Shown here piece by piece: positions 16,809 to 59,500 of a stretch of 64,000 nt of DNA (its first letter is position 1; every line of letters begins with the position of its first letter). A model generated the notes under the pieces. It saw only the letters and a list, made by a program, of their open reading frames with translations, had not been told where the DNA came from and did not search any database. Position numbers and translations under genes: made by a program. The stretch is taken from positions 310,001 through 374,000 of the forward strand of contig JAVXUO010000939.1 of assembly GCA_033065855.1 (NCBI GenBank), given 5' to 3'. The stretch comes from Escallonia rubra. Taxonomy: Eukaryota > Streptophyta > Magnoliopsida > Escalloniales > Escalloniaceae.

Positions 16809-19800
16809 TTAACAAGAATGACTAAAATCCCCTCGTAACAAACCATCATTTGCCCAATCCTGGTATACAGTGATGCATGCATGACGTGCAAAAGAAGCGA
16901 GTGATCTGGCCTCCTTCAGCTGTGGGGCTACAGCCCTGTCAATACTACAAAAGTGCATATCGTTCATAATGTAACATCGGTCATATAATACAGGTGCCAT
17001 GGGGTCGGCAACGTCTTCATTGTTTGTCATCTGAGAAAGAAGGAATTTTGAGTCGGTACATATTTTGAGGTGAGTAATCTTTTTTGTGTGAGCCCATGAT
17101 GCAATAGATAATATGCCCTTTGCTTGAGCAGCCATCCAATTAGAAGCTAGAATATTGATTGCCGCTGAAGCACATCGGATGCCATATTGGTTGAAACAGG
17201 AGATCCCTATACCTGCTCTGAGTAGGTTTTTATCAAAGCAAATGGCTAGATATATTGTTATAGGATCTTTGTTATGACATGTGCACATGTCTGGTTTGCT
17301 ATGTATTATGTAAGGTAGGTCATAGCACTGTTTTATACTCGGTAGTTGACTGCTAACGGTTTTTGTGGCTGCTGGGCTAGTAATGGTTGTGATCAGTTCA
17401 TGAATATTTTGTATAATAAGGTTGGGGTTAAAAGATATTTGTCGGAAAATTTGTTGGTTTCTATGGGTCCAAATACACCAAAGTGTGATGGAGATGGATA
17501 GTGTTTTTCTTAGAAAGGTGCTTTTTAGTCTAGTAGATTCAAACCAAGCTATGAGCCGGCCACTCGCGGAACGGACGCCGAATAGCGTTAACCTTGAGCC
17601 ATGTAGGGCCTCCAAACCAAACTGCTCGCACTTTGGGGTAGTGAAAGAATAAGTGATCTAGAGATTCTGGTGCATGGAGGCATATAGGGCAAAGGTTGGT
17701 ATATGATAAGGTGAATTGACAAAGTTTTGTGAGGAGTGGAAGTCGGTTCCATAGGGCCTGCCAAATGAGGAAGCTTATCTTGAGGGGAATAGGCAGAGAC
17801 CACACTAGGTTCCAAGCTTTCTCTGAGTGCGGGTTTTCCCGGATAGCTCCCTTGCCAAGTAACTCTAACGTTTTCTCTTGATGTAGTTTCTGATAAGCTG
17901 ACTTAGTGGAATAAATATCCATCTTTGTGTGCCTCCAAACCTGTTGGTCTGCAATCAAGTGTGGAGAGATATGAATAGCCTTGATTTTTTGTACCATTTC
18001 AAGGTGGAATAAGTGAGTGAGTCGGCTTTCATTCCAGGAGCCATTAGTATTAAGGTTTTGCACTTTTTCCATTGGGTCAAGGTAAATGCCGGCTTTCGGT
18101 TCGAGTTTGCTGTCAGAGTCTGGGATTCAAAAATCTTACCATACTGATATTTGTGAACCCGTACCAACTTGCCATCTTAGTCCATTTTTTACGACCTGTT
18201 TTCCTGCCATGATACTACGCCATCCCTAGGTGGACTTACCATTCTTTGGACTATTCAAAAAGGATGTGTGATTGCAGTATTTCCCTAGCATGACACGGGC
18301 TAGCAGACTTTCTGGCTCATTCCAAATTCGCCAGCTTATTTTTCCTAAAAGGGCCTGGTTAAGGATGGATATATCTTTGAAGCCCAAACCGCCAGAATGT
18401 TTTGGGGCACATAAGGTATGCCAGTTAATCCAGTGAATTCCTTTCTTGTGTTCGTCACCTGACCATCAAAATCTTGCAAGAATCGAGTTAATCTTTTTAA
18501 CAACGTACTTAGGTAGAAGGAATACCTGCATATGGTATATGAGAAGGGATGTGAGCACAGAGGTAATAAGGGTGGCTCTACCGACTTTATTGAGGATGCG
18601 ACCTTTCCAACCAGCACATCTATTTTCCAGCTTAGTGATGAGCTCTTTAAAGAATATTTTTTTATTTTGGGCTATGTCTAGGGTGCTGCCAAGATAATTG
18701 CCAAAATTGTCCTTTGTCGTAAATCCCGTCCACTGGGCAATGGTGTCGGCGTCATTAGGAGTCGTTGTTGGGCTAAGAGTAATAGAGGATTTCCTGTGAT
18801 TTATTTGTTGGCCAGATTCAGAGCAGTACCGTTTCAAGATTTCCTTTAGATGAAGGCATGAAGAAGGGGTGAACTTTGTGAATATCATCGCATCATCGGC
18901 GAAGAATAAGTGATTTATTGGTGGGCTATGGATGCCAGCTTTAATGCCCGGAATAGAGCCTGACAACTGAGCTTTCTTCAACGATACTGAAAGAACCTCT
19001 GCACATTAAGAGCTATGGTGACAGAGGGTCACCCTATCGGAGTCCACAAGTTGGTTGAAAACGATCCGTTGGTGACCCGTTGAGTAAAATCTCATACGAC
19101 ACACTATTCACACAGTTCATAATTAGCTTTACCATGTGCGTCGGAAACTTCAGCCTGTTTAGAACTGCCTTCAGAAAGGGCCACTGAATACGATCGTATG
19201 CCTTACTCATATCCATTTTGATTGCTCCTAAGATCGTCTTGGAATTTTTTGAAGATCGGATTTTATTTGTGAGTTCTTGGGCAATGAGGATGTTGTCGCA
19301 TATGTGTCTACCGCTAACAAAAACATTTTGCTGATTTGATATGAGGTACTTGAGTAAATGTTTGATCATTTTGGCTAAAGTTTTGGCAATAATTTTATAA
19401 ATGGTATTGCACAGGGAAATGGGTCTGAAATCATTTGGGGTGAGAGGTAATGGGCATTTCGGGATTAGGACTATGAAGGTTTTGTTGGTTGCTCGGAGGA
19501 GGTGGCCAGAACGTAGAAAAGAGAGAACGGCCGCCGTGATAGGTCTATCCAGAAAATCCCAGCATTGTTGGTAGACCAGTGCCGGTATTCCATCCGGGCC
19601 AGGGGCTTTGTAAGGTTTGATTTCAAAAAGAGCCGTTTTGACTTCCCTAGCCGTGAAAGGTTTTGAAAGCCGTTCAATCTGACAGGGTAGGAGGGATGTA
19701 TGAAGATCAAGAACCCCTTGGATAGTTGTCCGTTCTTCGCCTTCTATAGGTGCAGGGCAGAAAATCTTTTTAAAATGTGTAATCAAACAATGTGAAATCT

Positions 19801-20974
19801 CCTAATGCGTGTGGTAAGAATGTCCGTTGTCAGAGGAAAGGGACGAGATTTTGTTTCTATGTCTTCTGATGATGGTGGACGAATGAAAAAACTTTGTATT
19901 ACGATCTCCCAACTGTAGCCATATAATTCTTGATTTTTGTGCCCATAAAGTTTCTTCACAATCTAGCAACCAATCCAGTTTCTTCCTTGCATTCTGTTCT
20001 AGTAGTTGTGCATCTGGCTGGGGGAGGTGACGTTGAAAATGTTCTAGATGGCATTTTGTTTCCTCAATTTGTGCCTTTAGGTTACCAAATCCGTGTTTAT
20101 TCCAAAATGCCAAAAATTGCATCATCTTTCGGCCCAAAAAATCAACCTTAAACAGTGGCGATCCTTCGCACACCAAATTCCAAGTAGATTGAATGATATG
20201 CTTTCCTTGTGGATGTTTTAGCCACATTGCCTCAAATCTTCTCGGCCTTGGTAAAAAGACATGTGAGGGGTTCATATCGAGCAGTAGCGGTGCATGATCT
20301 GAGGTTTGGATCCCCAAGTTTTTTAGAATAGCGTTTGAGAAAAGTAGAAACCAACTTGCAGTCCCCACACATCTATCTATTCGTTCATATGTACAAAATT
20401 CTCCCACCCTGTTATTTGTCCACGTGAACGGGGGGCCTGTCCAGTGAACATCCACTAGGTGATTTTAGTTGAGGAAATCGCGGAGCTGATTGTGTCCAGG
20501 GATACAAGAAAAATTTAAACCAAATTTATCTGAGAGCGACAACACCTGGTTAAAGTCTCCAATCAGCATGATGGGTTTTGAGATATTGGATAAGATTTCC
20601 GAGATACGCCTCCACGTGGCTTGTCTTTTAGCTAAGAAGGGATGACCATAAATAAAACCCGAGATCCAAGGGGGTTCCAAACCACTTCTGAATTCTATTA
20701 AGATAAGATTTTTGTCTTGATAAAGCACAGAACCCTGAACATCATCCGTCCATCCGACCCACAAACCACCTTTGGTGCCTAACACCCCAGTCGGATTTAT
20801 TTCGGTTGATGAAGAGAACCCCAGTTTGAAGAAGAGATTTGAGATAAGCTGATGGTCTTGTTTTGTTTCTTGTAAGAAAACACACCCCGGATGGTGGGTG
20901 CGGGCCAGTTTAAGAGCTGCTCTAACTGTACGGGCCTGGCTTAGCCCCCTACAGTTCCAGCTGAGAAGAATCAT
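16809..20974 (-). pseudogene. LINE 1 ORF2 (endonuclease-RT-RNase H), broken
   Basis: Starts MILLSWNCRGLSQARTVR at 20974, the usual start of plant L1 ORF2. The apurinic-type endonuclease includes QETK, GDFNQVL (about 20540) and SDHAPLLLD (about 20290). The reverse transcriptase shows FRPISLCNTIYKIIAK, MDMSKAYDRIQW and, after a break, HLFFADDAMIF (about 18900). A zinc-binding reverse-transcriptase C-terminus (IWQALWNRLPL..CPICLHAPES) and an RNase H domain with CTDSKFLLSQ (about 17060) follow. Breaks: in-frame stops at 20465 and 19802, a frameshift between 19034 and 18981, stop/frame changes around 18466-18072, and a frameshift at 17615-17539. The domain order is complete, so this was a functional ORF2 at insertion. 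Confidence 0.9.
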
Positions 20975-22230
20975 TTACGGTGTAGGGGTTGCTGCGGGGC
21001 AACACCCAAAACCCGTAATCCTCGCCGATCTTAGGGGGAGAGGTACTTTGGGACAAATGGGTTATCCCTTTCCCCGAGGCTTCTTTTAGCAGATAGACCA
21101 AGGGTAATATCCCTTGGATCAGTAAGCATGTCGAAAAAAGGCCGCTCTAACCAGAGACTCACAGGCCGCCAAAAGTTACTAGAAGGTGAGGATTTTCTCT
21201 TTTTAATACTTGAGAGATAATGGCCTGAAGGATGGTACTGAGAGGGGGTACCAATAAACCGTGTTTGGTAGTTGACAAGGGAGAATTTACGTTTCTTCAA
21301 TTTTTCAGGCCGAGCAAAAACTTGGTCTAACGAAAGTAAAGAACTATCTATAGTTCTCTTTCTTTTTCTTTGTGATTGTTGTATAGAAATATCACTTTTT
21401 GAGTAACAATAGACGACAATAGAAAGTAAGTATCTTAACAACCGGCATGTAAGATATAAGCAGAGGTATTTGTTGTATGTAATTCGCAGCGAAAAGGGTG
21501 GATCACCTGGTGGGTTGTATGACAGATCCATGGGAGAAGATTTCTGTCTTTTTGTCAGCTGTTCTTTAGTCAAGTCAAGTAAGTCCTCTGCCTCCCTTGG
21601 CTTGATTAATTTGTCCCTGTTGGTTTCCTTTGAATCCAGAGGATCGATGTTTACATCTTATGTGGCTACAGAAAAGTTGTCTATCTCGCCACTAGATTCA
21701 TCAAATTCAGGTGCCTTGAAGCTCCTTCCCAGCATAGGTCCATATGAGTGTGCATCAGTGTGAGCGAGTTCTTGTATGGCTGGCCAGAATGGATCTCGGG
21801 CACTGCGCTTGGAGATAGGAAGAGTTGCTACGCCATTAAAAGTAGCTGGTTTTTTTATGGTGAGGATAAGGTCTTGGCTTAGGTGCGAGATACTTTGTTG
21901 AAGGGCTGAGGGTGAAGGGTCAAAGAGTGGTAGTGCTGGTAGTAGGAGAGTGTTCAGGGCTAGAAGATGGTCGTGTAAATTGGGAAGGGGGTTGTGGCAT
22001 TTGACTGCTGCGCTGGGAGAGGGTTAAATGTTGGTATTGTAATGTGAGGGGGGGCAGAGCTAGTATTTGGGTTTTGGTTGAGACTAGGTTCTGGTGTTTC
22101 TATGTGAAGGGTGGGTCGTGGGTTAGAAAACAGATATTGATTAAAGGGATGGGTTAGGATGGATAGTCCTAAGTCGGACAGGCCCAAAATAAACTTTGTG
22201 AGATTGATGGCTGGCATTGGTGGGCTTTCT

Positions 22231-23998
22231 TTAGTCTGGGTATTGAGCCCGGGAGAAAACCCGAGTGGAAGAGTCTACTACCGGTGCAGATGAGACAGAA
22301 CCTGTAAGTGAAGATATTGTTGGCATACCTGCAAGAGGAGAATCAGAGAGATTATGATAAGAGATTTTTGATTTGCCAAATCCAGATATATTGAGTAGAT
22401 CTTCATCCTTTTGCACATCCTGCCACACGTTGATTTCTGGTTGATTTTGGAGGGGGACAGTCATCATCAAGCTAGGCAAGGGATCGTTCCTCATGATTTC
22501 CAAAGGATTTGGTACAGTATTTGTTGTCGGCTCAGGGTTCAGATTTTTTGACTGTGGAAAATTCGATGACGTAGCCATTTCTCCTTCATGTATTTCCTGT
22601 ATCGGAAAGCTGTCGTCATCCGTCGGCCATAGTTCTGCCACCTGAATCATGTTGATGTCGATTTCTTCTGGATCTTCTTCAGTGGAGGTGGAACTGGAAT
22701 CTGTATGTATTATAAAGTTTTGTTCCTCATCAACTACCAGGTCTTCAATTATCTCCTCTATAAAAGCCGGTAAATCTGGGAGAGCTATATCCAAGTCATG
22801 TACTATTGGGTTCGCAGCTGGTTGAGGTTCGTATATATTTGCATGAAATTGTTCCTGTATCGCCGCAGTTCCTTGATTTGCTTGAAGGAAATTTAGGTCC
22901 AGATCTGCAATGATTTCCCCTAATTCCGTCACGCCTTCAGGGACCTCATTTAGTGTTAAGCCATGATCTTCCATGCCATTCTCATCCAAGCCTTGTATTA
23001 TATCATTTTCATCCGTGGCAGAGACAGGTGAAGAGGGTGTAGTTTCAAAGTCATCCTCATTACTAGAGGCTAGTGATGGATTTGGGGAGAAAGCTTCATA
23101 CATGTGGTTCAAGTGTAAACCCGTATTATTGCGAAGGATGGAGATACATGAGGTGCGGTTCCAGTCAGTATTCGGGAGGGCACGGAGGCTCATGCCGAAC
23201 ATTGGGTAGCCTTCAAGAATATATGTTTCATAAAGTGATGGTCCTGGGATGTGCGCAGTTCTCCTGGCGAGTGAAACTACCACATCATGCAGAGATGCCT
23301 TGCACTGAGTGTTCCCATGGCCTATGCACCCACATCGGAAGCATGCCATGAAGATGCGTTCATAAGTGCAACGCAGGAGTTGGACCCCCAGATTGTCAAG
23401 GAGATTGAGGAAAATTCCCGGTAGTAGTGGGTCATCGAGAATCACGCGTACCTTGATTTGAAAATAGTCGCCATTAGCTACTCTATTTGCCGACCAATCA
23501 ATGTCGAGTAGGACACCTGTAGCTAGATTGATCATCTCCGCAAGGTAATATTGGTAGCAATCACTCGGAATGTTGTATACGCGTGTCCATAGATCGACAG
23601 TTTTGAACTTGACTGTGCTATAGACAACATGTGGGTACCATTCATGCAAAACAAAGAGTGCTCCAAAAACGTTCCATGGGCCATTAACAAGAACCAACCT
23701 AGCGTCTGAGGCAAAGGTGAAATGGAAAAGAAAGACATTTGGGACTTTGGTAACTACCACAGGCCCTTGTAACTCCCAGCAAGCATTTATTCTGTTTTGA
23801 TTTTTTTGACTGAGAGAAATTTCTCGAATCGTGAAATTTTCCAATGAGAACATTCTCTTTACCTATTCTGGCATGAAGGACTTCTTGTGCATTCAGTGGG
23901 AGTAATAAAGTTCTCATGTCGATGGAGGCTTCTTCGTAAATGTTTTCCTCGTGAGATAGTGGGGCAGCCATGTGTAGTGGGTAGGGAGCAGGGAGCAA
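22231..23998 (-). pseudogene. LINE 1 ORF1 (DUF4283-zinc knuckle, nucleic-acid binding), one N-terminal frameshift
   Basis: The long frame 23853-22231 (540 codons) encodes a DUF4283-like region (MFSLENFTIREISLSQKNQN..VNGPWNVFGALFVLHEW), then a CCHC zinc knuckle CFRCGCIGHGNTQC (C-x2-C-x4-H-x4-C), then an acidic, low-complexity tail. The natural start is probably MAAPLSHEENIYEEASID near 23971 in another frame, joined by a 1-base frameshift at about 23860. The tail region 22217-20975 holds further shifted pieces (basic KKRKSS segments at about 21200) that may be the original ORF1 C-terminus. The role is RNA binding and chaperoning of the LINE RNP. Confidence 0.82.
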
Positions 23999-25393
23999 TA
24001 AGTTTGCTGGAGAAAAGTGAGTTTGCTGGAGAAAAGTGAGTTAGATGGAGAGTTATTGGGTGAGGAAAGGTTGTGGTCCTAGGTTTTCCGAGTGAGTAGG
24101 TAAGGATTGTTGGTGTTAAAAGAGGCAGCTAGAAATTTCTTGGCCTGATAAGTATAAGTAGAAGGGGGTGACTGAAGAGCAAGTGGGAAAATAAGCTGAC
24201 AGTTTAACCAGTACGCAGTGGAGTTTGTTGATGATGAAAGTTTGGGTTTTCATGATGAGTGAAAGAATTTAGAGAGAAGGCAGAGCGAAATCTTAGAGAG
24301 AGAAAAAAACGAAGCAAAGCTCGTATAATTAAATAAATCTGTTTTTGACATCAAATAAAGCAGATTCTATTGAATTGAAAACATTCTCCTGAATAGTTAG
24401 ATCTATGCAAGCAGCAAAAAGTGGTCAGTTTTGAGTCGAAAAGGACCAAACCAATTCCAAATTGAGAGTCTAGACCCAATGCAGACATTGCGACAGCACA
24501 AAAGATAGGTCGTGAAGGCTGGAAAAAGTGAGTGGACCCGGCGTGAATTACACCACCGTCCAGAGGATTATACGCCAAGGCTTTGGCCTAACTGCTTCGT
24601 GGCTCGAATTTGATCAAAGAGAGTGCGTATGTGTAATCGAAGCCGAGGCAAGGAAAATGGCAGAGAGTCCTGAAGACTGAGTTATATCTTGCTTTCCAGA
24701 TGACCCATATGACTACCACTATCCAGACAGTACAGAATAAGTCTTCCACATGATAATGAAGAGGTAAGGTTAACCAATATTCTATCCACTGCCGAAGCGA
24801 AAGACTATCTATGATGTACTCCTGGCCTTTTGTGTAACAATCGGATAGTCCACTAGTCCTTAATACGGGAGCAATGCAAGAAATAAATGACGATAAGTTT
24901 CAACATAACACAAAGGAGTCCCGTTTAGCTAGTTCATAACACAAAGGTAAGCGCTGATGCAGTAACTGCCAAAGGAAAAATTTTAACTTCTCAGGAATTG
25001 GTAAAGACCACGTCTCTTTCCAAAGGCGAGGAGGCATAAGTAAAGATGAATTGCGCAAGGTTATGGACTTAGCAAGCAAGAATACATAGGCCTTATTCAC
25101 CAAAAATTGCGCGTGCTTGACAAACGACTAGTGAATAGTGTCTGCTGAACGAGAGGGTAAAAACCTAAGTTGAAAGACTTGGGTAACAATCTCCAAAGGT
25201 AATAACCGTGGCACATTCCAGCTGCGGGATGCCAATAGGAACATATCACAAACCTTCCAATGTGCCTAGTACGATAACGTAGTAACAGGGAAGGCAGAAC
25301 ATTTGGCAACCACCCATCCATCCAAATCGAGATCTATCGCCCATCCCTAATATGCCATTGTATACCCTGCGTCAAAACTCGATGACCAACCAA

Positions 25394-25607
25394 TATGCCA
25401 CGCCACACCCAAGAACTAGCTTTGGAACGCTCAATTTGAAGAAAATTATGTCGGCGAAAATATCGACCTTGAAAGACTTGTGCAATTAAGCTTTTAGGCA
25501 TATGCCACGCCACACCCAAGAACTAACTTTGGAACGCCCAATTTGAAGAAAATTACGTCGGCGAAAATATCAACCTTGAAAGACTTGTGCAATTAAGCTT
25601 TTAGGCA
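25394..25607. repeat. 107-bp tandem duplication inside LINE 2
   Basis: 25394-25500 and 25501-25607 are almost identical (both begin TATGCCACGCCACACCCAAG and end TTTTAGGCA), differing at a few positions. It duplicates part of the zf-RVT coding segment and adds to the inactivation of ORF2. Confidence 0.9.
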
Positions 25608-27181
25608 TAGCCCAGATTTTTCAAGCATGTTTACGAAAATTGCGAAAACCCAAGCCACCTAGACGTTTAGGCTAACATAAGATGAGCCAAGCTATCCAAT
25701 GGAAAGATTTATGTAAAGCTCCACTAGACCACCAAAAACGTGCAAGGATTTGGTCCAACTGACAGCAAACTCAAATAGGGAGTTTACAAACAGGCATATA
25801 ATGAGTAAGAAGTGAAAAAAGAACTGAGTGGATGAAGGTGGCCCAACCAGCTTTATTTAAAAGTAACCATATCCAGTTAGCACATCGATCTTGAACTCGG
25901 TGTATGAGATCGGTAAAAGTTTCTTTCCGGTTAGCAACAACATCCAGCTGTATTCCCATATATTTGTCAAAACCCAGTTGGACTTAAAAATCAAGATCAC
26001 CCTCAATTTGATCATGCTACTCAGGAGAGACATTAGGTAGGACTAACAGTGAGACTGGATTTTGACCAATTAATGCATTGGCCGGAGAGATGACAATATA
26101 AGTCTAAGATGGAACGCAACTCCTTAACAACGTTACCAAGGTTCTTTTTGAGACTGAGGAACAAATAGATGTCGTCAGCATATATCAAGTGTGAGATGGA
26201 GGGCGACGTTATTCCAGCCTTAATTCCCCAAATTCGTCCACAGTTTTCAGCATCAACAGAAAGAACCTTGGAACATAGAATAAGAAGAAACGACAATACA
26301 TGATTGCTTTGACGAATGCCACAGGATGGCCGAAAATGAGGAGTCACAGCACCATTAATTAAAACAGAGAAAGAGACAGAGGAAATTCATTGCATGATCA
26401 ACTGAAACCAAGCAGAGGGAAAACCAAGGCCATGAAGGACTTCTTGGATAAAACTCCCGCGAAGACAGTCAAAGGTTTTACTCATATCCAATTTAAGAGC
26501 TGAAAGTATGGAGCCTCTGTTTGTTCGCCTCCAAATCATTCAGCTCTTGAGCCAAGATGACATTGTCAGACAGACAACATTTAGAACGAAGGCATTTTGA
26601 AATGGAGAGACAATGTCACGAAGGAAAGGCTTCATCCGATTAACTAAAATCTTAAAAATAACCTTGTAAATGACATTGCACAAACTGATAGGTCTGAAAT
26701 CTGCCGCGGTCACAGGGGTGGAAACTTTAGGTATCAAAGCAAGGTAGGTTGCATTGACTTTACCAAGCATGCACCCCGAATTAAGAAAAGATAGAGCCCC
26801 CTTAATGATAGCAGGCCCCATAAGATCCCAACATTTATGAATGACCAGGGCCAGAATGCCATCAAGACTAGAGGCTTCAAGTGCATCTATTTGAAAAGCA
26901 GCCGCTTTGACTTCTTCAGCCCTAAAGGCGTGACAAAGATGTTGAATGTGAATAGATGGAAGAGGCCGAATAGGAAAGAATCAGATAGCACACAGGGTAG
27001 AGCATCACCCGGGGGAGGACTGAATGGCGAGCAATAAAGTGTTGTAAAATAAACAACAATAGCCCGACCAATGTCATCCTAATCAGAAAGAAGCTGTCCA
27101 TGTTCATCATTAAGCGACATAATTTGATTATTCCGGCGCCGAATAATGGCGGAAGAATGGAAAAATTTTGTATTACGATCA

Positions 27182-27904
27182 AAGTTATCAATATCGTACC
27201 GGCACCGGTCATACCGGCCGGTACGTACCGTTTTTGCCTTTTACTGGTACGGTATCCCTTAAATTTTGTACAGGTCAAAATACCGCTCTGTACCGGCCGG
27301 TATAGGTGATATCGGCCGAAAATTACGTACCGGCCGAGATATTGTGTTTTGTACCGGGTCCTTTAAAAAATGTAAAAGTAACAAATTTTATTAGAAATTT
27401 TATAAATTGACCATATAAAGACTAAATAGAAAAACACTATAAGTTTTATTATACTAATCAAAGCCTATGTAGCCTCCTGCTCATAAAATTCATTACAATT
27501 TGTAAAATCGTTCCTGATAAGTTTTCAATATTCACTTATCTTTAATTACTTCATACCTGTAAACTTTGATCATATTCTTTCATCTATATGATGTTCTACT
27601 TTACACACACCCGCTCGCGCGCACACATGCACACACATAAAAACAACTTATTCTTGAACCCAAATACATTATTATTTAACAAACTAGCTTATTTGAAAAC
27701 TATGGTGAATCAAGCTCTATAAGATAAAGAGTTTATTTTAGAGGAGCTGTAAGTAAAAAAATATATGTATATATTGTTAGTTTGCCAGTGAATAAATAAT
27801 ACAAATAGATATTGTTGATGAAAATCATGAGACGGTACCGGTACCGATATGTACCTTTTCTTGAAGAAAACGGTACACACTCCAGTACGGTATTCATAAC
27901 TATG
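27182..27904. mobile_element. Mutator-like MITE (723 bp) with 10-bp target duplication
   Basis: Flanked by ATTACGATCA at 27172-27181 and 27905-27914. Terminal inverted repeats AAGTTATCAATATCGTACCGG (left) and the reverse complement of a CATAGTTATGAATACCGTAC end agree at most positions. Sub-terminal GTACCGGTACCG words recur in inverted orientation. The interior is AT-rich and non-coding. The 9-10-bp duplication suggests the Mutator superfamily. It splits LINE 2 ORF2. Confidence 0.78.
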
Positions 27905-28885
27905 ATTACGATCACACAGTTCAAGCCACTTTATTTTGGCACGCTACGCCCAAAAAAGCTCTTCAAAAGTGAGGAAGAAATCATTACATCGGCGAAGTTG
28001 GAAGTGAAAAAGATATGTTAAAGGATCTTGCTCAACTCCCTGTTGAACAACTCTCAATGTTGATCAACACGTATAAGGTCCGACAACTCACTAAAATGAG
28101 CGAAACCCAACAGGTTAAAGTCTTAAGCAAGGCTTAAAACTGGTTCATTAGGATGAGAACAAAGGAGAACCAGCAAAAGGTAATTGCCAAGAGGAAACTA
28201 TAAAGGGAAAACACTTAGGGCTGGACAACCACATTGCTTCAAACCGACGAGGTCTAGGATAAAGCTTACAAAATGGCAATGTCTCACACAATAAGGGAAA
28301 GTGATCAGACCGTTGTATTCCTAGATTGAAAGTAGTGGCATCGGGGAAGAGGATAAGCCACTCTGGCGAAGCCATAACCTATCAAGCTTTTCAAACACAA
28401 AGCCCAGAGACGGAGAACCCCGAGCCCAAGTAAAAGGAGAACCAACCTAAAATAGTGAAGATAAACAAAAGTGAGCTAGGAAATTAAATATGACCTGTTT
28501 TTTTCGTTGAAGACAAGACTTGATTAAAGTCGCCACAAATACAAAGACAGAGAGGCCTAGGATAAGGTTGTAAACTAGAAGCTAGCTGATCCCACGTGCT
28601 CTATCTAAAAGGAACTTGAGGATGTCCATAAACAAAACCAAAAGGGATAATATCATTTTAGTCCCCTGAACTATCCCCGCTTTTTTATTTTGGTCCATGT
28701 ACTTTAAAATTCGTTAAATCAGTCCCCGTACTTTGTTCCGTTATCAAATAGAACCCTCCGTTGGGATTTCCCGTCAAAAGAGACCACGTGACAGGCACGT
28801 GGTCATTTTTTGAAGGGTATTTCCGGCAAATGAAGACAAATGGATGGGATTTTGGGGGGTTTTTTGGTTGAAGAATGAACAGACA

Positions 28886-29425
28886 ATGGAGAATCCAAGG
28901 TCCATTCCCACAACCCTAAGCCGGTACGAGAACCAGCGCCGGGACTGGAACATGTTCGGGCAACACCTGCGCAACCACCGGCCGTCGCTCTCCCTCGCCC
29001 GCTGCAGCGGCGCCTACGTCCTCGAGTTCCTCCACTACCTCAACCAGTTCGGCCACCCTTCCCCACCTGCTAAGGTCCATGCCCACCCCTGCCCTTTCGT
29101 CTGCCACCCTCCCCACCCCCCCCCCGCCCCTGCCCATGCCCCTCCGCCAGGCCTGGGGCAGCCTCGGCGCCCTCATCGGTCGCCTCTGCGCCGCCTTCGA
29201 GGAGAACGAAGGCAAGCCCGAGTCGAACCCGTTCGGGGTGCTGCCGTCCGACTTTACCTCCGTAAAATCCGCGATTCACAGTCCAAAGCACGGGGGATCA
29301 GCTACGAGAAGAAGAAGCGGCGCCCACCCTATTACTCTTCTGATCTCGGCCGTTGGTTTCAAGAACCCTTCCGATCTTGGCGATGGCTGTCGGAGCAACC
29401 AGATGAACCTCCGCAAAATCCGTGA
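28886..29425 (+). pseudogene. Captured ALOG-domain (LSH/G1-like) gene fragment
   Basis: ALOG proteins are plant-specific DNA-binding regulators of organ boundaries and light responses. From ATG 28886 the frame reads [20 protein letters not shown] then [20 protein letters not shown] and [16 protein letters not shown], matching the start of the ALOG domain. The middle ([33 protein letters not shown]) lies in a different frame. The end ([29 protein letters not shown]) is back in the first frame. Two compensating frameshifts therefore leave an open 180-codon frame with a non-ALOG centre. It is intronless, like most ALOG genes. The C-terminal part is duplicated (29257-29407 and 29408-29558). Probably not a functional ALOG protein, but transcription could yield a truncated peptide or antisense/siRNA. 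Confidence 0.85.
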
Positions 29426-29558
29426 TTCGCAGTCCAAAGCACGGGGGATCAGCTACGAGAAAAAGAAGAGGCGCCCACCCTATTACTCTTCTGATCTCGG
29501 CTATTCGTTTCAAGAACCCTTCCGATCTTGGCGATGGCTGCCGGAGCAACCAGATGAA
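29257..29558. repeat. 151-bp tandem duplication within the Pack-MULE
   Basis: Two adjacent copies starting CCTCCGTAAAATCC and CCTCCGCAAAATCC. Each contains the ALOG C-terminal coding piece and the same GATCTCGGC..GGCGATGGCTG downstream sequence. The copies differ at several sites, so the duplication is not recent. Confidence 0.88.
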
Positions 29559-29783
29559 CCAGTGGCTTGCCGGAAATACCCTTAAAAAAATGACCACGTG
29601 CCTGTCACGTGGTCTCTTTTGACGGGAAATCCCAACGGAAGGTTCTATTTGATAACGGAACAAAATACGGGGACTGATTTAACGAATTTTAAAATACAGG
29701 GACCAAAATAAAAAAACGGGGATAGTTCAGGGGACTAAAATGATATTATCCCAAACCAAAATAAACTAAAGTACCAGAAGATA

Positions 29784-29939
29784 GGATCAAGATCCTCTGT
29801 TGTACAGTATTTAGCGACAAAAGATTGTCATTTAAAGTGTTTGTCGCTGTTACTGAAATTTATAGTGACAATTTTTTGTCGCTAAAAAATATTTAGCGAC
29901 ATTTTGTGGGTACAGCACACGGCAGAAGATCTTGATCCC
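29784..29939. mobile_element. Small hAT-type MITE (156 bp)
   Basis: Terminal inverted repeats GGATCAAGATCCTCT (left) and GGGATCAAGATCTTCT (right, reversed). Flanks AGAAGATA and AAAAGATA form an 8-bp duplication with one mismatch. The interior repeats TTTGTCGCTA/TAGCGACA in inverted orientation and is non-coding. Confidence 0.65.
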
Positions 29940-30229
29940 AAAAGATACGGCATAAGAGGTGAGGATAATATGCTTAGTCACAAAAGACAAGCGACAAAGG
30001 CATGAAAGAATGTCAGGCCAACCAAAGCCTGCATTGGCATTAATGGGACTCAGTACCTATAACATGTTGAAACCCTAATTTTCAAAAAATAACAGACATT
30101 TGAGTAAAAGCCATTTTCGTTTCCATCAAGAAAACGACGTCCATGACTTTGCTTACGGATCAAATGGAAAGCTGCCTGAACTGTGGTGGTTTGACCCAGC
30201 CCACCACAGTACCAGTTAAGAATTTTCAT

Positions 30230-56596: not shown

Positions 56597-59500
56597 CAGT
56601 GGCGGAACCAGGATTTCATCCTAGGGGGGCTAAAAATATATCGAAGGAGAAAAATATTTTTATAAGTAAAATAGCACACAAAAACAAAGTGCACTTTTCG
56701 ATAATACACAAAACATACTAAAAAACATCTAAAAGGTCTTATTAAGTTTCATGAGAGCCACTAAGGACTCTTTACAACACAAAAGAAGAGAATCCAAAAT
56801 ACACAATTCAGTGTTTACAAACGAAAGCACTAAATAACTACTCGATGAGGCGCCGAAAATTGGTAGCGTTTGATAATAGCCTCATTTGTAATAGTTTTGA
56901 AGACATTTTTCTCGATATAACAAACCAAGCTATCATTCATCCATTCGTCTCCCATGCGATTCCGAATTCGAGTCTTCATTATCTTCATTGCAGAGAAAGC
57001 TTTTTCTACAGTACCAGTTACAACAGGTAAAAGTAAGACCAATCTCAAAAGCAAGAATACCAAAGGATATATCACATCCTTTTTCAACTCAACTAACTTT
57101 ATAACAAGTTCACCAATTCCCCTGACTTCATAAAGTTCTTCACATGAGCGCACATCCATAATATAAGTCTCGAGCTGACTTTGAAGTATTGTAAGCTCTA
57201 TCGGCGAAAAGTCATATGGATAAAATTGTGCAAGACGTATCAACTTCTGCTTATTAAAAGCAGAAAAATCATCACTTGGATCGAGACATGCCATACATAT
57301 AAGCAACTCCGTGGTTACCTCACTGAAACGATTATTCAACACACTGAAATGATTATCCAACTCACTGATTTACAAATCAACAACCGTTAAAAAAATATCA
57401 ACACGATAATGGTAAAAATTTGTACCTTCCTCAGCATTACGTCTTTGCCTCCCTGGGGCTACAAACCTCGCACTCATGTCCAATACGTCAATATCGTGTT
57501 TTACACAAAATTGTGAGACCTCTTCCAGCAAGTCTTCCAACCCTTGATCTCTAAAGTCCTGCAATCGTTGCTTTGTTATACTTACCAACTTCATTGCATT
57601 CATAATGTTTTGATATTTCTTTTGTAATGCTTGTGAAAGTTCATTCGTCATGCCCAAAATATTTATCATCAAATGCATGTTGAAGACAAAATCATAAGTT
57701 GGCACCGAGTTCAAAAGACCCAATGCTTCACCTCTCTGTTCATAATCTGTAGCATCCTCAATAACCTTATTAAGCACACATATCACTGAAGCAAACATAT
57801 GACTCAAATTCAATAGTGCACCGTAATGTGATCCCCAACGGGTCTCTCCTGCTCTTTTGATGCTAGTTTCTTGATTTAAACCTCGACCACTGACGATATC
57901 ACCACTCTTAAGGTCACGAGCAAGTCTAATGGCTTCACTTTCTCGAATATCATCTCTTCGCTTGCATGAAACTCCCACACTGTTGACTACCTTAGCAACC
58001 AAATTAAAGAGCAATGCAATCTGAGTATGTTTTTTTGCAACGGCTACAAGAGTTAGCTAAAGTTGATGAGCAAAGCAATGAATATAATAAGCACTTTCAT
58101 TCTCCCTCTGAATTAAAGTTTTAAAACCATTGAATTTACCTTGCATATTACTTGCTCCACCATAGCCTTGTCCACGAATTCTTGAAATGCTCAATTCATG
58201 CATTGCAAATAAACTGTCAATCGCATCTTTCAATGATAAGGCAACGGTATTAGCAACATGGACAAGAAAACGTTCAATCACACGTCCTCTTTTGTCCACA
58301 TATCTCAAGACAACCCCCATTTGTTCTTTGACTGAAATATCACGACACTCGTCAACTAAGATAGAAAATAATTCAGTTTTCATGTCCCCAACAATTGCAT
58401 CTCTTATTTCTCCGGCAATGGCACTAACAATTTCTTTATGAACTTTTGGTGATGTCAATTTGAGATTCTGAGGAGCATTCGACAACACGACTTTTTTCAC
58501 ATTTTCATTGTAATCAACAATAAATTCTAACAGTTCTAGAAAATTTCCCTGATTTTCAGATTCATCAGATTCATCGTCCCCACGGAAAGACAAGCCTTGA
58601 CGTAAGAGAAACCGAATAACATCAATTGATGCAGTCAAGCGAATACGGTATTGAACCCTACTTTCATCTGTTTGCTTGGACAAAACTACTTCAATACTCT
58701 GCTGAGGGTTATCAAAGGCTTGACACTTAGTTAAAGCAAGGTTGTGTACACTACCAACTTCTCCAACATGTTTTTGGAATTTCTCCTTCTTTCTCCAATC
58801 GTTAAAACCATGCCTAACAAAAGTACCACCACCCCCTTGCTCCCCATGAGCACTTCCGAACAAGTAGCAACACAAACAATATGCTTCATCTTTTGCTACA
58901 CTATACTCCAACCAACTCGAATAAATGTCAAACCAAGAAGAAACAAATCGACGAGATTGAGTTCCAAATTGTGTAAATGAAAATTTGTGGTGACGAGGTT
59001 GGCAAGGACCTTTCGACCAATACGCTCGTCGAACTTTATCTCGAACATAAGGACCATAATCCAAAATATTCGGACGCAACCCAGGATCCGCAATAAGCTC
59101 GTCAGAATTAAACTCATCGCTAACTCTGCTTGAATGTCCAGAATGAATATCACGATACACAATGGGAGCCTTGTCCGTTACTGTTGGAATCAGAGATTGT
59201 TGAATAGTATCTTGATTTCTACACTCATTCTTATTAGACTGTAATAACTTTTCCACCTTTGGTTTCTTTTGATAGAACCTTTCCATTCTAAAAAAATATA
59301 TTTTATTTTAAGTATAAATCCATCAATTATCAATCAAATAACCTAGTTAATTACAAATATTTTATTCTTTTACTTTTCCAGCCATGTTTTATTATCGCGT
59401 TAACCTAATTAACTTAATTTCAACCCACCATTCAACTAAATCACATATCCGACATCTCAATCCAATTGGGTCTCATCCTCCATCAACCATCTCAATTCTC

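Follow-up and report, generated by a model that had tools for sequence, protein, structure and literature searches.

A 1109-bp element at positions 28644-29752 of the analysed window (the whole 64,000-nt stretch of Escallonia rubra DNA) is very probably a copy of a Pack-MULE family that was founded by a single capture from L034, an ALOG gene of the same genome, and whose cargo was recombined and then amplified. Sequence comparison within the window delimited a non-autonomous Mutator-like element (MULE) with the long terminal inverted repeats (TIRs) expected of such transposons: the left (28644-28829, plus strand) and right (29567-29752, minus strand) TIRs, 186 nt each, match at 180 of 186 positions (96.8%). 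The target duplication AAACCAAAA is identical at 9 of 9 positions on the two sides (28635-28643 and 29753-29761), within the 8-11 bp, usually 9, characteristic of MULEs; the random expectation of one such pair at the local composition is 7.3e-6. The interior of 737 bp has a centre (28891-29330) of 66% GC, compared with 42% and 40% in the two TIRs, and Pack-MULE cargo is likewise GC-rich. Pfam searches of four frames returned only ALOG, plus a Tat match below the cut-off, so that the element is free of transposase, as Pack-MULEs are; Rfam gave no hits over the whole window at gathering thresholds. A sequence-only reading of the window had described a Pack-MULE with an ALOG fragment, TIRs of about 185 bp, a perfect 9-bp target duplication and a GC-rich centre, a description borne out by these measurements together with the ALOG homology and the TIR-free parent gene reported below. 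Each TIR also contains a near-palindrome with two CACGTG (G-box) motifs (28776-28810 and 29586-29620), which could serve as a putative binding site or form a small hairpin.

The captured ALOG coding sequence occupies 28907-29320 on the plus strand. One frame matches the ALOG domain (Pfam PF04852, E 2.6e-20, passing the cut-off) and the solved domain of Arabidopsis LSH3 (AtLSH3, PDB 8p5q, E 7.6e-35), and the middle of the domain is recovered in a second frame (Pfam, E 4.5e-12); the three ALOG motifs from which this homology had been proposed are all present, spread over the two frames. Searching the window's own assembly (566 Mb, 3222 contigs) with an ALOG profile yielded 122 matches, merged into 105 loci, which comprise 8 genes with full-length open ALOG frames and 97 non-gene loci. 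None of the 8 genes has a TIR match nearby (3.4 kb searched per gene, with about 1.5 kb around). The parent that had been predicted to reside in the same genome is L034 (also listed as L050; C1655:110996-111370), whose ALOG frame of 202 codons is intact and which lacks a TIR match. The window copy and L034 agree at 92.6% of 394 aligned sites in the ALOG block, versus 65.3-78.8% for the seven other ALOG genes, and blastn aligned the copy to L034 positions 801-1202 at 86.6%, gaps included. The element thus has the defining feature of a Pack-MULE, MULE TIRs enclosing a piece of a host gene whose parent can be identified. Surveys of ALOG genes in this genome could count such transposon pieces as genes, given that 97 of the 105 loci lie outside the 8 genes.

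The element is inserted into a decayed LINE, found by tblastn with the frames of the window's first LINE as endonuclease, reverse transcriptase and downstream pieces over 24924-30229 (minus strand). The LINE endonuclease is split by the element, with residues 106-152 at 28639-28493 and residues 1-57 at 30229-30065, both on the minus strand, in agreement with the nesting proposed earlier. When the flanks were joined computationally, both endonuclease pieces aligned in order, with a gap between them and in two different frames, so the host LINE must be decayed or further interrupted. The TIRs, the target duplication, the split LINE and the true gene elsewhere exclude an ordinary gene locus at 28644-29752; the sequence-only reading had named a TIR-free ordinary gene as the finding that would overturn it, and the TIR-free gene proved to be the separate parent. 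Other features of the neighbourhood were observed as well. The segment 27181-27817, devoid of LINE similarity and with a GTACCGG-like sequence near both ends, separates two LINE endonuclease pieces and is probably another insertion in the LINE. A short element-like stretch at 29784-29938, starting 22 bp to the right of the target duplication, is bounded by inverted ends of 16 bp (94%), contains TTTAGCGACAAAA-type inverted repeats further in, and could be a MITE that entered the same LINE. Within the decayed LINE, 25393-25609 is tandemly duplicated at a step of 107 bp (96% over 110 nt). A better preserved LINE lies at 16809-23862 on the minus strand, with frames that we take to be ORF1-like (543 codons), endonuclease, reverse transcriptase and RNase H-like; frames of 179, 228 and 416 codons at 56830-59307, also on the minus strand, presumably belong to a hAT-type transposase.

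The left part of the element was traced to MULEs lacking ALOG. Element positions 1-255 (28644-28898), i.e. the left TIR and a subterminal leader (28830-28898, plus strand) with a start codon at 28886, match ALOG-less elements and also L097 (89.4%), an element of 4489 bp (4.5 kb) that shares the TIRs and, judging from its flanks, has a duplication of 9 bp. One frame of L097 contains a SWIM domain (zinc finger; Pfam E 2.9e-8), which we take to resemble the end of MULE transposases. Pfam matched no MULE (DDE) domain in the two L097 frames submitted, and the N-terminal frames gave no hits, so that no intact transposase with these TIRs was seen. That an element with the same TIRs has a SWIM frame nevertheless favours assignment to the MULEs. 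Such transposons seem to be very plentiful in the genome, a MULE-domain search having returned 3309 candidates, many of the 150 scored with open frames near 777-782 codons. The similarity of the leader stops sharply at 28898, right after ATGGAGAATCCAA, and 8 bases further on the ALOG reading frame begins, in frame with the MULE leader and its start codon. At this leader-ALOG junction (28899-28906, plus strand), pairwise alignment revealed a direct repeat (D5): positions 28897-28911 repeat the ALOG sequence of 29072-29086 at 14 of 15 bases. Because the junction repeats 15 ALOG bases, it suggests template switching.

At the other end of the cargo, we found a 151-bp tandem duplication that the sequence-only reading had missed. 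Unit 1 (29256-29406), which consists of the ALOG end plus a tail (29321-29406), and unit 2 (29407-29557), both on the plus strand, are 94% alike. The duplicated segment begins and ends at ACC, which would fit a slip at a 3-base match. At site 29278, all two-unit copies having the site carry A in unit 1 (11 of 11) and G in unit 2 (13 of 13). The tree of tandem units is poorly resolved, with units 1 and 2 mixed and the window's unit 2 placed among unit 1 rows; site 29278 and the common ends suggest that the duplication arose once. As to the origin of the tail, 42 of its 43 genome matches lie at or beside ALOG loci (three of these, on C2541, C1987 and C2239, were counted without being fetched), and the search for a donor beyond the family gave nothing except a 53-bp match at C939:48421-48473.

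The two compensating frameshifts noted earlier are real when the window copy is compared with the parent. The shift near parent base 1119 (net -1) is common to 13 of 13 two-unit copies aligned and also occurs in four one-unit copies (L020, L022, L025 and L027), and the upstream pair (-1 and +5) is, among the copies aligned, found in the window copy only. Since 151 equals 3 x 50 + 1, unit 2 restores the ALOG frame after the -1 shift. Two long frames are open on the plus strand, one of 193 codons (28844-29425) that runs through the MULE leader, the N part of ALOG, an out-of-frame proline-rich middle and the C part of ALOG, and one of 168 codons (29079-29585) that covers the ALOG middle and then, via unit 2, the ALOG C part again. 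The frame shifts within the domain, and the window copy has no intact single-frame ALOG domain such as characterizes an ALOG transcription factor.

We examined 53 of the 97 non-gene ALOG loci, window included. Both TIRs were present in 50 and one TIR in three (L017, L021 and L089); none lacked TIRs altogether. Matching flanking duplications were found in 39 of the 50 two-TIR elements (24 of 29 in one set, window included, and 15 of 21 in the other), counting full matches only and allowing small shifts of the ends; in the 29-element set, lengths of 8-11 and one mismatch were searched. Four elements of that set showed no recognisable target duplication and one an 8/9 match, and six of the 21 had none; for L041, the match counted lies 6 bases inside the extrapolated end. 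By the part of ALOG carried, given in parent coordinates, the elements take at least five structural forms: A (675-700 plus 749-1280), B, to which the window copy belongs (801-1202, with one or two tandem units), C (959-1280), D (959-1147) and E (1011-1202, plus 945-852 in the opposite orientation). The right end at 1280 comes from searches with the whole parent locus, one other query having itself ended there. In a comparison of flanks that set aside L017, L021 and L089, the groups L018/L019, L020/L022/L027 and L024/L026/L028 proved to be duplicates, with one insertion per group.

The substitutions in the copies bear the mark of cytosine-biased mutation. In 13 pooled pairs of copies, CG and CHG sites underwent transitions 2.4 to 3 times as often as CHH sites did, a pattern of methylated DNA that suggests past methylation of the copies. 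This observation favours the idea that small RNAs made from the family silence its members and perhaps also modulate the parent ALOG gene, as the sequence-only reading had suggested for such captures; we regard this as unlikely, although a number of the sequence data would accommodate it. Compared with 52 element-bearing sequences, 22 of which are whole loci including flanks, the parent shares exact 21-mers that together span 483 of its 609 coding bases, all of them within the CDS; six other ALOG gene loci share 0-18 21-mers, and the window copy taken by itself shares 39 with the parent. Small RNAs from the family could therefore act on the parent. The TIRs are able to pair as a 186-bp stem, and a review describes captured sequences in maize, in its excerpted text, as siRNA reservoirs that act on donor genes (PMC13317346). 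Against this, the ALOG sequence would sit in the loop, outside the TIR stem, and the CpG observed/expected ratio of the parent block, 1.0, gives no sign of long methylation; the ratio is insensitive and does not discriminate, because the five copies tested are also near 1 (0.92-1.12). A related proposal, on which we would place little weight, is that the leader-ALOG fusion provides dispersed, MULE-driven ALOG microproteins or small-RNA sources that would modulate the parent. If it were true, a domain that came from a retroposon and then became a plant regulator would now be used or controlled by a DNA transposon.

The different ALOG ends of the five forms (801-1202; 675-700 with 749-1280; 959-1280; 959-1147; 1011-1202 with 945-852) could also mean that ALOG was captured independently several times, rather than once with later reshuffling. 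The phylogeny makes this very unlikely. In maximum-likelihood trees, the copies formed one clade with ultrafast bootstrap support of 98 (tree 1: 28 A/B copies with the parent, L049 and L053) and 96 (tree 2: all classes, without L089, the genes L047, L048, L051, L052 and L054, and rows with 150 or fewer sites). The parent lies at the base of the clade on a branch of 0.003-0.005, and the copies share a common stem of 0.023-0.033. C and D group with A (support 88), and, in matches against the whole parent locus, A (L035, L030) and C (L076, L083) have the right end at 1280 in common, which again argues against separate captures. Support is weak for the branching order of the single-unit B, E and A copies, and the placement of L026/L028 varies, beside B in one tree (71) and beside A in the other (74). 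We read these data as one capture followed by amplification and repeated reshuffling.

Are the captured sequences maintained as coding regions? Naive counts over 13 disjoint pairs (26 of the 28 A/B copies, L020 and L029 omitted) gave 123.7 synonymous and 160.3 nonsynonymous changes, with dN/dS of 0.41-0.60 depending on the mutation setting. About half of this signal vanished when cytosine context was controlled in the same pairs, with sites at which both members differ from the parent dropped. The transition ratio was then 0.71 for A and B together (p = 0.009; 111 synonymous changes seen versus 93.1 expected), 0.72 for B (p = 0.029), 0.69 for A (p = 0.15) and 0.74 for C/D (p = 0.34), i.e. a nonsynonymous deficit of like size and in the same direction in each lineage tested. 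The C/D value derives from 8 pairs including 16 of the 19 copies (10 C and 6 of 9 D; the D copies L090, L091 and L081 were omitted, and E copies of the L093 type stayed outside the pairs). Transversion ratios, computed from 4 to 10 synonymous events, were 1.29 in B, 0.98 in A and B together, 0.50 in A and 0.44 in C/D, the last two from 4 such events each. The Ka/Ks comparison suggested by the sequence-only reading, carried out here between pairs of copies, hence gave a low ratio in its naive form, of which the context-controlled values retain only part. The data indicate at most weak constraint at some stage, and residual mutation bias could be the source of the leftover deficit. A trap emerges here: where captured coding sequence is GC-rich, cytosine-biased mutation can account for much of a naive dN/dS value under 1, which bears on claims of purifying selection for Pack-MULEs.

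The earlier suggestion of a chimeric protein fares poorly in these tests. The proposal is that the window copy is a functional chimeric ALOG protein under selection, with a start codon in the leader, ALOG ends and a new proline-rich middle, and its attractions are the in-frame fusion of leader and ALOG and the open frames of 193 and 168 codons. A frame of 180 codons reported before is indeed open, but composition shuffles of the interior reached at least 180 open codons in 150 of 1000 cases and at least the observed 215 in 39 of 1000, and left the GC-rich core fully open in some frame in 287 of 1000. Long frames are expected because the interior is GC-rich and stop-poor, and the window's long open frame, being of a length not unusual for its composition, is weak evidence; long open frames were accordingly set aside as a sign of function. 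Furthermore, the window copy carries the middle of the ALOG domain out of frame, and stops in the matched frame are listed in 8 of the 13 two-unit copies, the five without being the window, L009, L010, L015 and L021. Between the window's tandem units, 5 of 5 differing ALOG codons are synonymous and 3 of 3 differences in the tail nonsynonymous; selection inferred from the former (naive p 3e-4 to 2e-3) was set aside, as it concerned a single copy picked post hoc and the 13-pair context-controlled test gave 0.71. The transition ratios of B, A and C/D and the transversion ratios of A and C/D would agree with selection, whereas the transversion ratios of B, the window's own lineage, and of A and B together stand against it, as do the D-class chimeric frames, which showed no consistent in-frame synonymous excess in 3 pairs (L077 used twice). 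With the window's ALOG frame broken and constraint weak at most, a functional chimeric protein is very improbable.

Open frames were observed elsewhere in the family as well. The MULE copy L035/L055 (C1826:66964-67338), 94.4% identical to the parent over 532 bp, has an ALOG frame (Pfam 2.8e-63) that stays open from a Met as far as the stop codon of the parent. The form D copies L077-L081 (on C1674, C358, C333, C1071 and C1395) have open chimeric frames of 298-329 codons that retain a portion of the ALOG domain (in L077, Pfam 4.8e-23); their TIR pairs are 95.5-97.5% alike, which points to recent spread.

The Pack-MULE family would thus go back to one capture event, with the ALOG gene at C1655:110996-111370 as donor, and an early form would have held nearly all of the reading frame (parent positions 675-700 and 749-1280). 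The cargo may then have been recombined into new elements through template switching in the course of gap repair. In the window's lineage, ALOG positions 801-1202 would have been fused, with the reading frame kept, to the 5' leader of a same-TIR but longer MULE; this lineage would subsequently have gained the tail, the -1 frameshift and the 151-bp tandem duplication, and amplified. Mobility was probably provided by a MULE transposase in trans, and the copies look methylated and appear mostly to drift. The window copy is real and well formed, and looks like the decaying cargo of a known kind of element rather than a new working gene.

The kind of element is known; the family is new, high-copy and well preserved in its history. 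With the parent, a near-full-length element, the MULE leader, the junctions and dozens of descendants in one genome, the steps of capture and reshuffling can be read. No paper in the literature searched combined Pack-MULE and ALOG, and the matches listed, several of them excerpts, included no report of this family, whether as an amplified Pack-MULE or as ALOG capture or transduplication; a scan of viral contigs yielded no confirmed relative of the ALOG piece. Rice and maize Pack-MULEs, as presented in excerpts of PMC3903597 and PMC13317346, also combine long-TIR ends, 8-11 bp duplications and host gene fragments. Relative to the elements in those excerpts, the cargo here is an ALOG regulator gene, and one capture appears to have given rise to a large family with traced rearrangements (97 loci, 53 examined). 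Non-autonomous too are the Pack-TYPE clusters of maize, which, according to the excerpted PMC8903248, can pass one hundred members and whose elements can acquire DNA by fusing neighbouring elements; the largest clusters named there are hAT and PIF, whereas ours is a MULE family. KI-MULE (Kaonashi), with its captured ULP1 peptidase domain, is likewise a MULE group with a captured host domain. In the excerpt of PMC13317346, these are non-TIR MULEs that have three coding genes, the captured one among them; unlike them, the present family is bounded by long TIRs and has many broken cargo frames, and the window copy yielded no transposase. ALOG domains themselves are thought to derive from a DIRS1-type retroposon (PMC3537659, in excerpt), and ALOG-bearing DIRS1-type retroposons resemble our family in having an ALOG domain inside a proliferating mobile element. 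According to the same excerpt, the domain there is part of the element's own recombinase, whereas here a piece of a host gene resides in an unrelated DNA transposon, which, in view of the retroposon origin ascribed to ALOG, would amount to a second passage of the domain through mobile DNA.
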